Source of the DNA: a virus
Direction: 5' to 3' (one strand)
DNA length: 26,637 nt
IMG/VR virus record: IMGVR_UViG_3300044951_000278
Location: 1-26,637 of that record
Under the pieces are notes generated by a model. That model saw only the letters and a list, made by a program, of their open reading frames with translations. It was not told where the DNA came from and ran no database searches. This document shows positions 2,375 to 8,660 of this stretch, piece after piece. The stretch's first letter is position 1, and the number at the start of each line of letters is the position of its first letter. Position numbers and translations under genes: made by a program.

Positions 2375-3634
2375 TTATACCCCACTAATAATATCTACAG
2401 GTTGCCAATCCTCACTATCATCTTCTTCCATGTAAGATGTAACAGCCAGTTGGTCAATGTAACTGAGGGAGTCAGGCAAGTCATCATGGACTCCTTGAGC
2501 AGGGAACAGGATTAACTGGTCTACAAACTCATCCCAATCTTCTTCCGAATTTAACACAATTCTGCCATGCTCGAACCTACCTTGTAAAGCCCAGATGATT
2601 CTGTCCGCTTTTTTTCTATTTCCGTGGGTCAAATCTATGATGTGAGCATAGGTGTTGTTCTTACGCATCAAGTCGCTCAGATAGGGCAAAACAGCGTTCT
2701 TTAACGCCCCCCTCTCTATCCCCACACTTAAAGGGCGGTAGTCTCGAATGGCAATCAGTATCTTGGAGGCTGTCTCTCGGATGTCCCAACGTCCATGTTC
2801 AATCTTCTCAACAAACCACTTCCCATCGTCTGTCACCTTAACAATTGAGATAGCAGACTCGTCTAACCGCTTCTTAGAGTTGGCGGCTTGTTTGGCAACT
2901 TCCTCGAACCCCGCAAGGTCAACAGCGATGTAATAGCTTCCATGTTCAGGTTTTACCCCGTATTTGATCCACTCTTCTTTGAAGATGTCCGAACCTGCAT
3001 TGGTAAACGAAGCCATAAACTCTTGCTTAAAAGCGAAGGAACTTAGGGTCTTTTTAGCGGAATCTATCTCTGCTTGGTCAATCAATGGGTTATCAGCAGT
3101 GGTAAAGTGCCATGACTTCCAATCAGGATCATCCTCTGACTCGCCCAACTTAAAGGTGTCGTAGAACCAGTTGCGTCCTTTTGGAGTGCCAATAAAGAGT
3201 GCTCTTCCCCGTTTATCAGATAGAGAGGCTCTAATGACCTGTTCCCATGCTTCGGGCTTAATGTCGGCTACCTCATCGAGAACGGCATAGGTCAAGCTAA
3301 CGCCACGAAGGGTATCAGGTCTATCCGCACCACGGACGTATATCCTAGCCCCGTTTATCAAGGTAATGTCTAGGTTGTTTACATGACTGCTCTGAATAAC
3401 CTCTCTGCCAAGGTCTAGCAGTAAGTCCCAAATAATCTGTCTTGATTGTCCCATAGTGGGACTCACATAAAGAACCGCAGAGCCTTGTGGACACTTGAGT
3501 CCTTCAATCAGTAGGGTAACTGCCGCCATACGTGACTTACCGCACCTACGCCCAGCAGCCACAACCTTGAAGCGTGTCGTATCCTTAAATACCTCTTGTT
3601 GCCAAGGAAGTAGAGAGAAGTTCAGATCAGCCAT
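2375..3634 (-). CDS. terL: terminase large subunit
   Basis: The 419-residue ATP-driven DNA packaging motor and headful/cos nuclease. The ATPase domain has a Walker A motif AGRRCGKS (residues 27-34), Walker B YAVLDE (116-121, with the Asp-Glu pair), and a coupling motif FIGTPKGRNW (147-156). The RNase H-like nuclease domain shows an acidic residue in YYIAVDLAG (Asp239), Glu307 in GIERGA, and a C-terminal acidic cluster HDDLPDSL (383-390). The length is typical of compact TerL proteins. ATG 3634 overlaps the terS 3' end by 8 bases, with GAGG 6 bases upstream. It partners TerS for DNA recognition and docks on the portal encoded next. All key residues appear intact. Confidence 0.95.
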   Translation of the reverse strand: MADLNFSLLPWQQEVFKDTTRFKVVAAGRRCGKSRMAAVTLLIEGLKCPQGSAVLYVSPTMGQSRQIIWDLLLDLGREVIQSSHVNNLDITLINGARIYVRGADRPDTLRGVSLTYAVLDEVADIKPEAWEQVIRASLSDKRGRALFIGTPKGRNWFYDTFKLGESEDDPDWKSWHFTTADNPLIDQAEIDSAKKTLSSFAFKQEFMASFTNAGSDIFKEEWIKYGVKPEHGSYYIAVDLAGFEEVAKQAANSKKRLDESAISIVKVTDDGKWFVEKIEHGRWDIRETASKILIAIRDYRPLSVGIERGALKNAVLPYLSDLMRKNNTYAHIIDLTHGNRKKADRIIWALQGRFEHGRIVLNSEEDWDEFVDQLILFPAQGVHDDLPDSLSYIDQLAVTSYMEEDDSEDWQPVDIISGV

Positions 3635-4001
3635 ATTTAGCCTCTACATCTTCAGCATCAGGAATGGTGTCTATCACAGTAGGTTCTTGTCCTAATCCGG
3701 TGATATTGATGGTTACGGCACTTCTCTGAGACTTATCCTTTTCAAACAAAGAAACAGGAAGAGTCCTATCAAGACACATCTTCAAGGCTACCAATTGATG
3801 GGGATGCTCATCATTAAGGGCTATCTCAATAACCTTCTGAGCCACATCCTTACCACCAGACCTAATCATTAGCTCTTTAAGCTCCTTGAGACGTTGATGG
3901 TCTGTCTTAGGTAGTACTAGGGGTGGATTGTCAGCAAACCTCTGTATGGTCATCTTGACGCTCCCCTTTGGTCTTCCTCTTCCTCTTTTCAATTGTTCCA
4001 T
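3627..4001 (-). CDS. terS: terminase small subunit (putative)
   Basis: A 124-residue protein directly upstream of and overlapping terL, so it is most likely the small terminase subunit that recognises the packaging site. The N terminus is very basic with a GRGRPKGS motif (AT-hook/tail-like), followed by a helical region (TDHQRLKELKELMIRSGGKD) and a C-terminal acidic tail (DAEDVEAKYG). Similarity to named TerS families is weak, as usual for this protein, and the call rests mainly on position and size. The start is decided by AAGGAG 5 bases upstream of ATG 4001. It is the first gene after the 315-bp control region, so it probably carries the operon's 5' leader. Confidence 0.75.
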   Translation of the reverse strand: MEQLKRGRGRPKGSVKMTIQRFADNPPLVLPKTDHQRLKELKELMIRSGGKDVAQKVIEIALNDEHPHQLVALKMCLDRTLPVSLFEKDKSQRSAVTINITGLGQEPTVIDTIPDAEDVEAKYG

Positions 4002-4065
4002 TGGTTCTCCTTGGAATTGTCAATTTAGCTTTTTCTGAGGGTAGGGTGCACCTCAAATCTTCTCT

Positions 4066-4090
4066 CCCCTCACCTACCCCCTCCCCCCCC
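4066..4090 (-). other. G-rich tract in terS leader (possible G-quadruplex)
   Basis: On the minus strand there are runs of 8, 5 and 4 G residues within 25 bases (plus-strand C runs at 4083-4090, 4077-4081 and 4066-4069). The run of 8 can supply two G-tracts, so a four-tract quadruplex with short loops is possible. It lies 65-89 bases upstream of the terS start codon, in an otherwise AT-leaning region. It could fold in the leader RNA or the displaced DNA strand, or be part of a packaging site. The G-runs are seen; folding is inferred. Confidence 0.45.
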
Positions 4091-4100
4091 ATACACCACC

Positions 4101-4113
4101 TAGGGTTTTCCCT
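4101..4113. promoter_or_regulatory. AGGG-TTTT-CCCT element, copy 1
   Basis: The sequence TAGGGTTTTCCCT is an inverted repeat of AGGG/CCCT around four T. A second copy lies exactly 50 bases away at 4151-4164, and related elements occur at 4601-4619, 7049-7064 and 10123-10136, all in noncoding DNA or at gene ends. It abuts LexA-like box 1. It is likely a protein-binding site; the binding protein is unknown to me. Confidence 0.5.
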
Positions 4114-4121
4114 CATGTCTT

Positions 4122-4127
4122 TTTATA
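4122..4127 (-). promoter_or_regulatory. candidate -10 element for the terminase operon
   Basis: TATAAA reads leftward here, preceded directly by CTG. At 17-base spacing the -35 position (4145-4150) reads ATCTGT, a poor match to TTGACA, so the promoter would be weak or need an activator. Transcription would start near 4115 and give a leader of about 110 bases containing the G-rich tract. The promoter is inferred from this one hexamer. Confidence 0.3.
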
Positions 4128-4150
4128 CAGTACTGTCCAGGCATACAGAT

Positions 4151-4164
4151 CAGGGTTTTCCCTA
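4151..4164. promoter_or_regulatory. AGGG-TTTT-CCCT element, copy 2
   Basis: CAGGGTTTTCCCTA shares a 12-base core with copy 1 and is located between LexA-like boxes 2 and 3. The exact 50-base distance to copy 1 (about five helical turns) would put both sites on the same DNA face. Confidence 0.5.
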
Positions 4165-4190
4165 CTGTACAAATAACCAGGCAGCTAGAT

Positions 4191-4209
4191 GCGAATGATT
4201 CTCATTTAC
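4191..4209. promoter_or_regulatory. Fur-like box
   Basis: Read on the minus strand, the 19-mer GTAAATGAGAATCATTCGC matches the classical Fur consensus GATAATGATAATCATTATC at 14 of 19 positions, with 12 of 13 in the central AATGATAATCATT block. It lies just upstream of the LexA-like cluster relative to terS. It could bind host Fur (iron-dependent repression), or the resemblance may be accidental. Confidence 0.4.
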
Positions 4210-4316
4210 GTTTCATGCAAGTGTAAGTAGTGGCGGGTGCTTTTCAAAGTTACTTGATTGATCTAGTTCTATCCGTTCACCTTGTCTATCCCTTATGTAT
4301 TCCCTTACTGTTTACC

Positions 4317-4556
4317 CTATTGATTGACATGGTTAGGGCTATCCCTTTTCTTTTCGTCTAGGTTAGTTACTAACCCTATTGTCTCTAAGGGGCTATCTGT
4401 TCTATATCCCAAGCAATGCAAGTGCTGATACAAGCTCAATAGGTTTTCAAAACCCTGGCTGATATTCCCTTGTCCAGCACTCAATAGAATTTGCAGCTTA
4501 GGGTTATCCAACTTGCGTCTAAACTGAACTGTATCTACCTTAGGCGGGCGGGCCAT
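4317..4556 (-). CDS. small possible DNA-binding protein
   Basis: A 79-residue protein starting MARPPKVDTVQFRRKL, basic at the N terminus, followed by a helical segment (NISQGFENLLSLYQHLHCLGY). This layout resembles small phage ribbon-helix-helix-like regulators, but I cannot name a family. AAGG lies 7 bases upstream of ATG 4556. It is transcribed leftward toward the terminase control region and is divergent from the 4692-5851 operon, with inverted-repeat elements between them. An autoregulator acting on the flanking AGGG/CCCT elements is an attractive but untested idea. Confidence 0.6.
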   Translation of the reverse strand: MARPPKVDTVQFRRKLDNPKLQILLSAGQGNISQGFENLLSLYQHLHCLGYRTDSPLETIGLVTNLDEKKRDSPNHVNQ

Positions 4557-4600
4557 GATCTAACCTTGCAAAACAATTAAATTAAAATAATTGTACTTTA

Positions 4601-4619
4601 TTAGGGTTTGTCCTAATAG
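4601..4619. promoter_or_regulatory. inverted repeat between divergent genes
   Basis: TTAGG-GTTTGT-CCTAA, extendable to a 7-bp stem TATTAGG/CCTAATA (4599-4618), lies between the start of the 4556 gene (minus) and the 4692 operon (plus). Two T-runs follow on the plus strand, so it resembles a terminator, but no rightward gene precedes it. Its likeness to the AGGGTTTTCCCT elements favours an operator. Confidence 0.4.
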
Positions 4620-4691
4620 TTTTTTCTTTTTTTGTCGTTACTCTACTGATACCGAACTAGCGGATCTAGTGTCAACTGATAGGCGTGAACG

Positions 4692-7793: not shown

Positions 7794-8660
7794 TTAATCC
7801 CCACAGAAGCAAGCAATTGCCTCTTCATTTGGATCAAACATATCTTTTTGCTGAGAAGAATATTTGGCCATGGTTTCATAAGTTGGATGATCTCTGGAGA
7901 AATGAATGACACTTTTGGCAAAGTTATCTTTTGCGTAGCTTTCCATTTCTACCCACCAAACTGCTCTTTCTGGCTTTTCTTGGATAAGAGAAACAATTTG
8001 AGCAACAGGTTTATGAAAACATAAATCACAATTTGAATGAAAACTTTTCCCGTTATACATTGGCGTATTTAAGTTAAATGGTTGAGATTCCCAAAAATCA
8101 CCAATGTGAGAAGCTATTACTCCAGCATCTGCCAGGGGAGTCAAAAAGTCTCCAATCCAATTTTTCTTTCGTTGAGCGCCATTAGACCCTCTCATTTTAG
8201 CTACTCGCCTTTGCTCATCAGAACGAATGCCAACCATCTGGTCGCATGGATTGTCATCAGTTCCAATATTTTGGTCTTTTAAATACTTATGAACAATATC
8301 GATTTTTAGTTCACCAGTGCAAAACCGCATAAAACCATTTGGCAGGGCTTTCTTTTTAATGCACATATCTCGGAAAGGCTCTCCATTTCTTGCAGCCGTT
8401 TCGTAGGAAACCACTTCATAGCCAAGTTTGTTATCTCTCCATTCCAGCCAAACAATTGGAACATTCCAGTTTGTTGAGCAATCGTGAATAAACTTAAGGG
8501 TTGCCTCTTCTTCTTTGCCTGTATTGGCAAAACAAACAACTGCCTCTGGCGGTAGGCTCATGTGGTGAGCTTCTAAAACTCTGTACAACATATATGCGCT
8601 AGTTCTGCCGCCAGAAAAACTAATGCAAGTTGGGGTTTTAATTTCAAATGGATTACTCAT
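7794..8660 (-). CDS. PP-loop PAPS-reductase-family protein
   Basis: A 288-residue member of the PAPS reductase/DndC-like PP-loop ATPase superfamily. The nucleotide-binding loop is SFSGGRTSA (residues 14-22), followed by CFANTGKEEEATLKF. Cysteines in RFCTGELKI, CDLCFHKP and the C-terminal CFCGD could hold an Fe-S cluster. The ECGLH-type C-terminal motif of true PAPS reductases is absent, so sulfite production is unlikely. Phage members are common near replication genes and are suspected of thiolation or DNA-modification roles (DndC is the precedent). ATG 8660 has GGAG 6 bases upstream and overlaps the preceding stop as ATGA. Family confidence is high; function is unresolved. Confidence 0.8.
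   Translation of the reverse strand: MSNPFEIKTPTCISFSGGRTSAYMLYRVLEAHHMSLPPEAVVCFANTGKEEEATLKFIHDCSTNWNVPIVWLEWRDNKLGYEVVSYETAARNGEPFRDMCIKKKALPNGFMRFCTGELKIDIVHKYLKDQNIGTDDNPCDQMVGIRSDEQRRVAKMRGSNGAQRKKNWIGDFLTPLADAGVIASHIGDFWESQPFNLNTPMYNGKSFHSNCDLCFHKPVAQIVSLIQEKPERAVWWVEMESYAKDNFAKSVIHFSRDHPTYETMAKYSSQQKDMFDPNEEAIACFCGD

Follow-up and report, generated by a model that had tools for sequence, protein, structure and literature searches.

Genes and sequence elements upstream of terS

The window analysed here is a viral contig of 26,637 nucleotides (IMG/VR record IMGVR_UViG_3300044951_000278), for which hundreds of relatives exist in IMG/VR. No close isolate relative was found, and the identity of TerL and portal protein to the phage GenBank matches listed does not exceed about 25-29%. 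The operon considered here lies entirely on the minus strand and comprises terS, terL (2375-3634; PHROG_2, E 1.9e-48) and the portal gene (399-2372; PHROG_1216, E 5.3e-39). The putative terS (3627-4001, 124 aa) was assigned by its position and its conservation together with terL; its product had neither a PHROG hit nor a Pfam match above the cut-off. Two related phages carry extra ORFs between terL and portal (L267, 1987-2661; L269, 5941-6678), which differ from each other, and one of them looks like a zinc-ribbon/HNH-type insertion. Elsewhere in the window, at 7794-8660, a phosphoadenosine phosphosulfate reductase-like gene (PHROG_424) is encoded.

The first gene of the operon is preceded by an array of palindromic elements. 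Within positions 4102-4205, it combines three LexA-type boxes with two AGGGWAAACCCT palindromes and a single Fur-type box. Read on the minus strand, the order is CTGGTTATTTGTACAG-T-AGGGAAAACCCT-GAT-CTGTATGCCTGGACAG-TA-CTGTATAAAAAGACAT-G-AGGGAAAACCCT, followed by a G-run (GGGGGGGGAGGGGG, 4077-4090, minus strand) and then by terS, so that LexA-like 16-mers alternate with the palindrome AGGGAAAACCCT. The two copies of this palindrome (both minus strand) are situated at 4102-4113, closest to terS, and at 4152-4163, 50 bp from the first. On the other side of the array lies ORF79 (4317-4556, minus strand), a small conserved protein with 23 aligned family members. It has a putative promoter of its own at 4590-4614 (minus strand), inferred from an AGG-type box (4603-4614) followed by TACAAT, and this box is kept in relatives as AGGRYAAACCC variants ahead of ORF79.

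Three clustered LexA-type boxes

The first-pass annotation had described one perfect and two single-mismatch copies of CTGT-N8-ACAG within 70 bp, and exact matches were found at 4115, 4133 and 4165. Box 1 (4115-4130; minus strand CTGTATAAAAAGACAT, plus strand ATGTCTTTTTATACAG) deviates from the motif by one mismatch and includes a TATAAA, box 2 (4133-4148; minus strand CTGTATGCCTGGACAG, plus strand CTGTCCAGGCATACAG) has the perfect core, and box 3 (4165-4180; plus strand CTGTACAAATAACCAG) again has one mismatch. The boxes show the dyad of an SOS box, with conserved half-sites. In the whole window, 14 matches with at most one mismatch were observed and 13.1 were expected; as there is no general excess, it is the cluster alone that is unusual. 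When the window was dinucleotide-shuffled 1000 times, three boxes within 70 bp came up twice (once if a perfect box was required), and 5000 shuffles of the local region 4000-4690 gave no such case, in agreement with the earlier estimate that chance is an improbable source. The view that the cluster is accidental and has no function could draw on the missing excess of single boxes. Against this stand the cluster probability of about 0.002 and the recurrence of the elements across some 105 dereplicated relatives and their absence from coding controls, and this conservation makes a chance cluster hardly credible. The cluster is real and beyond chance.

It had also been proposed that the boxes overlap the probable promoter of the operon. 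A leftward TATAAA is indeed present in box 1 on the minus strand. However, no -35 element was found at the boxes, a promoter scan returned no sigma70-like site there, and in relatives the TATAAA occurs only where this variant of box 1 is carried. A sigma70-like promoter at the boxes was therefore rejected, and the proposed promoter overlap is not established.

For a more specific comparison we built a LexA matrix from 23 sites located ahead of lexA genes in genomes of one bacterial order. This order was chosen by L155, the only bacterial match to the phage region, which sits in a betaproteobacterial MAG; the order behind the matrix may differ from that of the phage host. A scan of the window with this matrix, similar to the host LexA scan advised earlier, placed the three boxes at ranks 1, 3 and 4 of 26,617 positions: box 3 (4165) is the best site with 14.9 bits, box 1 (4115) follows with 10.2 bits and box 2 (4133) with 9.7 bits, and rank 2 is held by a site within a gene (6529, 12.1 bits). 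Three sites of this quality within 74 bp were seen in none of 1000 shuffles. Upstream of terS, the best LexA score has a median of 14.5 bits across 103 relatives, compared to -4.2 bits in coding controls. The bases outside the CTGT/ACAG core, which had not been used for picking the sites, also fit LexA, with a mean of 0.1 against -7.0 in random context, whereby the sequences are mutually related. Since the bacterial training operators score 11-26 bits and the boxes of the window (9.7-14.9 bits) lie at or below the low end of this range, the phage boxes would be weak to moderate sites.

The sequence TACTGTATNNNNNNACAGTA was detected at about 60 places in bacteria of the order of the L155 MAG, versus one in the control, and several of 20 neighbourhoods read resemble lexA, recA, umuD and dinB, named from translations without a family search. 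LexA was above the cut-off in 39 of 60 genomes of this order. Compared to the SOS boxes of proteobacteria (CTGT-N8-ACAG, as in lexA, recA and umuD operators), the phage boxes are alike in half-sites, in spacing and in the preference for TA in the flanks and AT at inner positions. They differ in scoring lower, in being embedded in a repeat array, and in that many of them have a GACAG right half, whereas bacterial sites have TACAG or AACAG. Judged by these sequence comparisons, the boxes behave like real LexA-type operators and are well supported as candidate sites.

Palindrome modules and a Fur-type box

The initial reading of the elements as LexA boxes is thus backed by matrix, half-sites and flanks, but it covers only a part of a modular array that also contains AGGGWAAACCCT and a Fur-type box. 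The latter (ATGCGAATGATTCTCAT, 4189-4205, plus strand) has one mismatch to the 7-1-7 Fur motif; the corresponding palindrome TGANAATNATTNTCA is matched with one mismatch at 4190-4204, and no other site in the window comes as close. The pattern ATRAGAATCATTCKCAT was found in 4 of 120 bacterial genomes and not at all in the control. In two of the four sites it adjoins an iron locus, feoAB-like in L313 and fbp-like in L315 (genes named from translations). At the fbp-like iron-transport locus the 17-mer is identical to the phage ATGCGAATGATTCTCAT. Unlike the Fur boxes of iron uptake genes, the phage box precedes packaging genes, and in some relatives other cassettes take its place.

The 12-bp palindrome of the phage is shared with tandem AGGGTWWACCCT-N12-AGGGTWWACCCT promoters in some bacteria of the same order. 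There, AGGGTAAACCCT occurs in pairs 24 bp apart that flank promoter-like sequence, whereas the phage spacing is usually 50 bp. In the bacterial promoters of L295-L298 and L304-L311, two AGGGTWWACCCT palindromes 24 bp apart are followed by TATAAT. A further cassette of the family, Z (AGTTATAAATCATAAC), was considered as a bacterial operator and dismissed, with 10 matches not above the control.

Conservation and reshuffling in relatives

About 105 dereplicated relatives share these modules and their junction spacings but arrange them in differing order and number. Among 103 distinct upstream regions, the density is 2.28 per kb for perfect CTGT-N8-ACAG and 4.5 per kb for perfect AGGGNNNNCCCT, versus zero for both in 144 kb of neighbouring coding sequence. 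The palindrome module (AGGGAAAACCCT in the window) has 99 copies in 105 dereplicated relatives and none in coding controls. In 16 longer records, AGGG palindromes are nearly confined to the area upstream of terS, and CTGT boxes elsewhere are few. The junction lengths between modules are fixed (A-3-L, L-2-l, l-1-A and others). The modules themselves vary in order and number, with at least 60 architectures among 146 unique regions. The reshuffled modules are always located directly upstream of the invariant poly-G tract and terS.

When the 16-mers were taken by position only, 3 nt after AGGGWAAACCCT, information amounted to 0.4-1.0 bit per base in the half-sites but to 0.03 bit at the centre, a contrast typical of sites bound by dimeric proteins. 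The 16-mer of box 2 (CTGTATGCCTGGACAG) itself occurs 21 times directly after AGGGWAAACCCT in relatives. A lack of conserved half-sites in relatives had been named as evidence against a regulatory role; instead, the half-sites are kept and the centre drifts in about 105 relatives. A pairwise comparison of array and coding divergence yielded too few close pairs to be informative. One 68 kb contig (IMGVR_UViG_3300043446_000617; L049, L053) contains two terS-terL regions, separated by about 34 kb, that differ from each other and in their arrays; it probably represents two related genomes fused in assembly.

Alternatively, the boxes could be operators, with LexA-like half-sites, of a dimeric regulator encoded by the phage itself, which times late transcription; ORF79 or another small protein could be considered. 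ORF79 is placed between the array and its own promoter, which bears an AGG-type box, and AGGGWAAACCCT is the most constant module of the array. The AF2 model of ORF79 (pLDDT 74.7) has an extended N-terminus and helices at 18-27 and 32-48, and this predicted strand-helix-helix order fits a ribbon-helix-helix repressor, so that ORF79 may be a DNA-binding protein of this type. Ribbon-helix-helix repressors bind tandem short repeats. However, family and fold searches with ORF79 gave no match, and its alleles give no indication of the modules in an array: in each of the four larger ORF79 types, 50-72% of arrays have the perfect CTGT-N8-ACAG core. ORF79 was therefore set aside as the specific binder of the array. 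In addition, flanks and inner positions of the boxes follow the bacterial LexA matrix and the Fur-type box matches bacterial iron operators, and we consider a phage-encoded regulator unlikely.

Sister clades and the conserved leader

The G-run is a near-invariant landmark between array and terS in all clades. It (GGGGGGGAGGGGG) is followed by a leader (..GATATTTGTGG..CCC..CAGAAAAAGC) that extends to position 4002; both are kept in all clades, and the sequence preceding them turns over. Both elements were seen in the window, L073-L075, L155 and L376-L455. G-run and leader are candidates for a core promoter, cos or pac. In sister clades near L155, they are kept and LexA boxes are mostly absent. 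The L155 subclade itself has LexA boxes upstream of its ORF79 homologue instead. In other clades, this place is occupied by DnaA boxes, by Fur boxes or by further kinds of palindromic repeat. The place before terS is conserved and its content turns over. DnaA-box sequences (TTATCCACA) take the position of the LexA boxes in L388, L391, L422, L448 and L451, where they lie some 100-200 nt ahead of the G-run. In L394, L399, L426, L438, L446 and L447, the G-run is preceded by arrays of SlmA-like palindromes that resemble GTNAGTRCTNAC. As SlmA sites, the GTNAGTRCTNAC repeats were discarded, with fewer bacterial matches than the control. In a panel of regulator motifs, which included motifs already noticed in these sequences and was applied to mutually related regions, only LexA, Fur, SlmA-like and DnaA motifs were enriched besides the modules of the family.

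The vicinity of terS raises the question of a structural element, such as a packaging site (cos/pac) or a replication origin, the function of which would depend on palindromes or protein-bending sites, with the likeness to LexA and Fur boxes being secondary. The array adjoins terS and the poly-G tract, DnaA boxes occur in some sister clades, and contig ends accumulate in the 200 bp before terS (19 of 139 contigs), more than elsewhere. However, these ends are spread across the 200 bp and do not share a single point, so that assembly breaks, probably at the variable array and the G-run, explain them, and cos/pac was rejected as their cause. Module order and number vary freely while TerS is mostly 90-100% identical, unlike what would be expected for a site read by one packaging protein. 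Folding is only mildly better than in shuffles (z -2.1), on which basis a hairpin role in RNA or DNA was dropped as well. A structural element of this kind appears very unlikely to us.

The turnover in sister clades could also point to a decoy. Multiplying phage genomes would draw LexA and Fur (in sister clades also other regulators) away from host SOS and iron genes and thereby derepress these, with terS itself unregulated. This would account for several unrelated host-type regulator motifs being gathered at one place, where sister clades have DnaA or Fur boxes or the GTNAGTRCTNAC repeats, and for the location of the array upstream of the conserved leader and not on it. On the other hand, each genome offers only 3-6 sites, far below the hundreds or more repressor molecules in a cell; the strict position ahead of terS and the fixed spacings argue for local regulation, and the SlmA-like repeats are not enriched in bacteria. 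In sum, titration as the sole function seems quite unlikely.

A possible link to host stress regulators

We propose that host LexA (and Fur) bind the modular operator array and restrain the terminase/head operon until LexA is cleaved or outnumbered, a reading to which we assign a probability of about one half. During infection, the bound regulators would hold down leftward terS-terL-portal expression at early times. Relief could come about through activation of RecA by phage replication and the ensuing cleavage of LexA, or through an excess of multiplying phage genomes over the repressors; in both cases replication would precede the expression of the packaging genes. A different regulator would recognise the AGGG palindrome. 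Against this mechanism count the modest matrix scores of the boxes and the GACAG right half of many of them. In addition, the conserved leader elements are downstream of the array, and an array-bound repressor would therefore not block RNA polymerase sterically, and most sister clades are without LexA boxes. The link between SOS response and packaging and head genes that was suggested initially is a plausible hypothesis.

A precedent is known from bacteriophage GIL01 of Bacillus thuringiensis, in which the promoters P1 and P3 are repressed by host LexA together with gp7 (PMC6182141, PMC4551915). At the late promoter P3, LexA and gp7 act through tandem boxes (PMC6182141). Both systems have tandem LexA boxes ahead of a late gene operon, and in both, here as a proposal, host LexA replaces a dedicated phage repressor. 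Compared with P3, the boxes of the window are likewise in tandem, but no -35 or sigma70-like site was found there and the TATAAA is not conserved. GIL01 is temperate, infects Bacillus and has its boxes within a mapped promoter, with experimental proof, whereas the phage described here is a tailed freshwater phage known from sequence, with the array upstream of the leader, Fur and AGGG modules mixed in and no evidence of lysogeny. A combined LexA and Fur array in a phage was not reported in the open-access literature searched, but as coverage was partial this is weak evidence of novelty.

A tyrosine integrase was not found in 17 records of relatives, and SOS control would therefore not serve ordinary prophage induction; a classical prophage switch is not supported. 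A prophage state was also rejected after the genome collection had given one match only, a 4.7 kb contig in a possibly misbinned MAG. This widespread freshwater phage family is apparently lytic, although a plasmid-like lysogeny would be compatible with the lack of an integrase hit.

The striking part, as seen at the sequence level, is the shuffled multi-regulator array. In a wider and more tentative interpretation, possible rather than probable, the region before terS might serve as an evolvable platform on which several host master regulators dock (LexA, Fur, the AGGGWAAACCCT regulator, and DnaA in sister clades), the modules of the platform being shuffled under a fixed spacing syntax. Late expression might then respond to DNA damage and iron state in the host and to the supply of regulators, or the array might titrate regulators.

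Most examples known to date of control by host stress regulators come from temperate phages and mobile elements. If the proposed mechanism is true, such regulators would govern the packaging operon of a tailed phage in which no integrase is apparent. With more than 100 natural variants of a reshuffled array at constant spacings, the family is a ready data set for combinatorial promoter logic, and the array makes the dependence of late gene expression on the state of the host testable in abundant freshwater phages.
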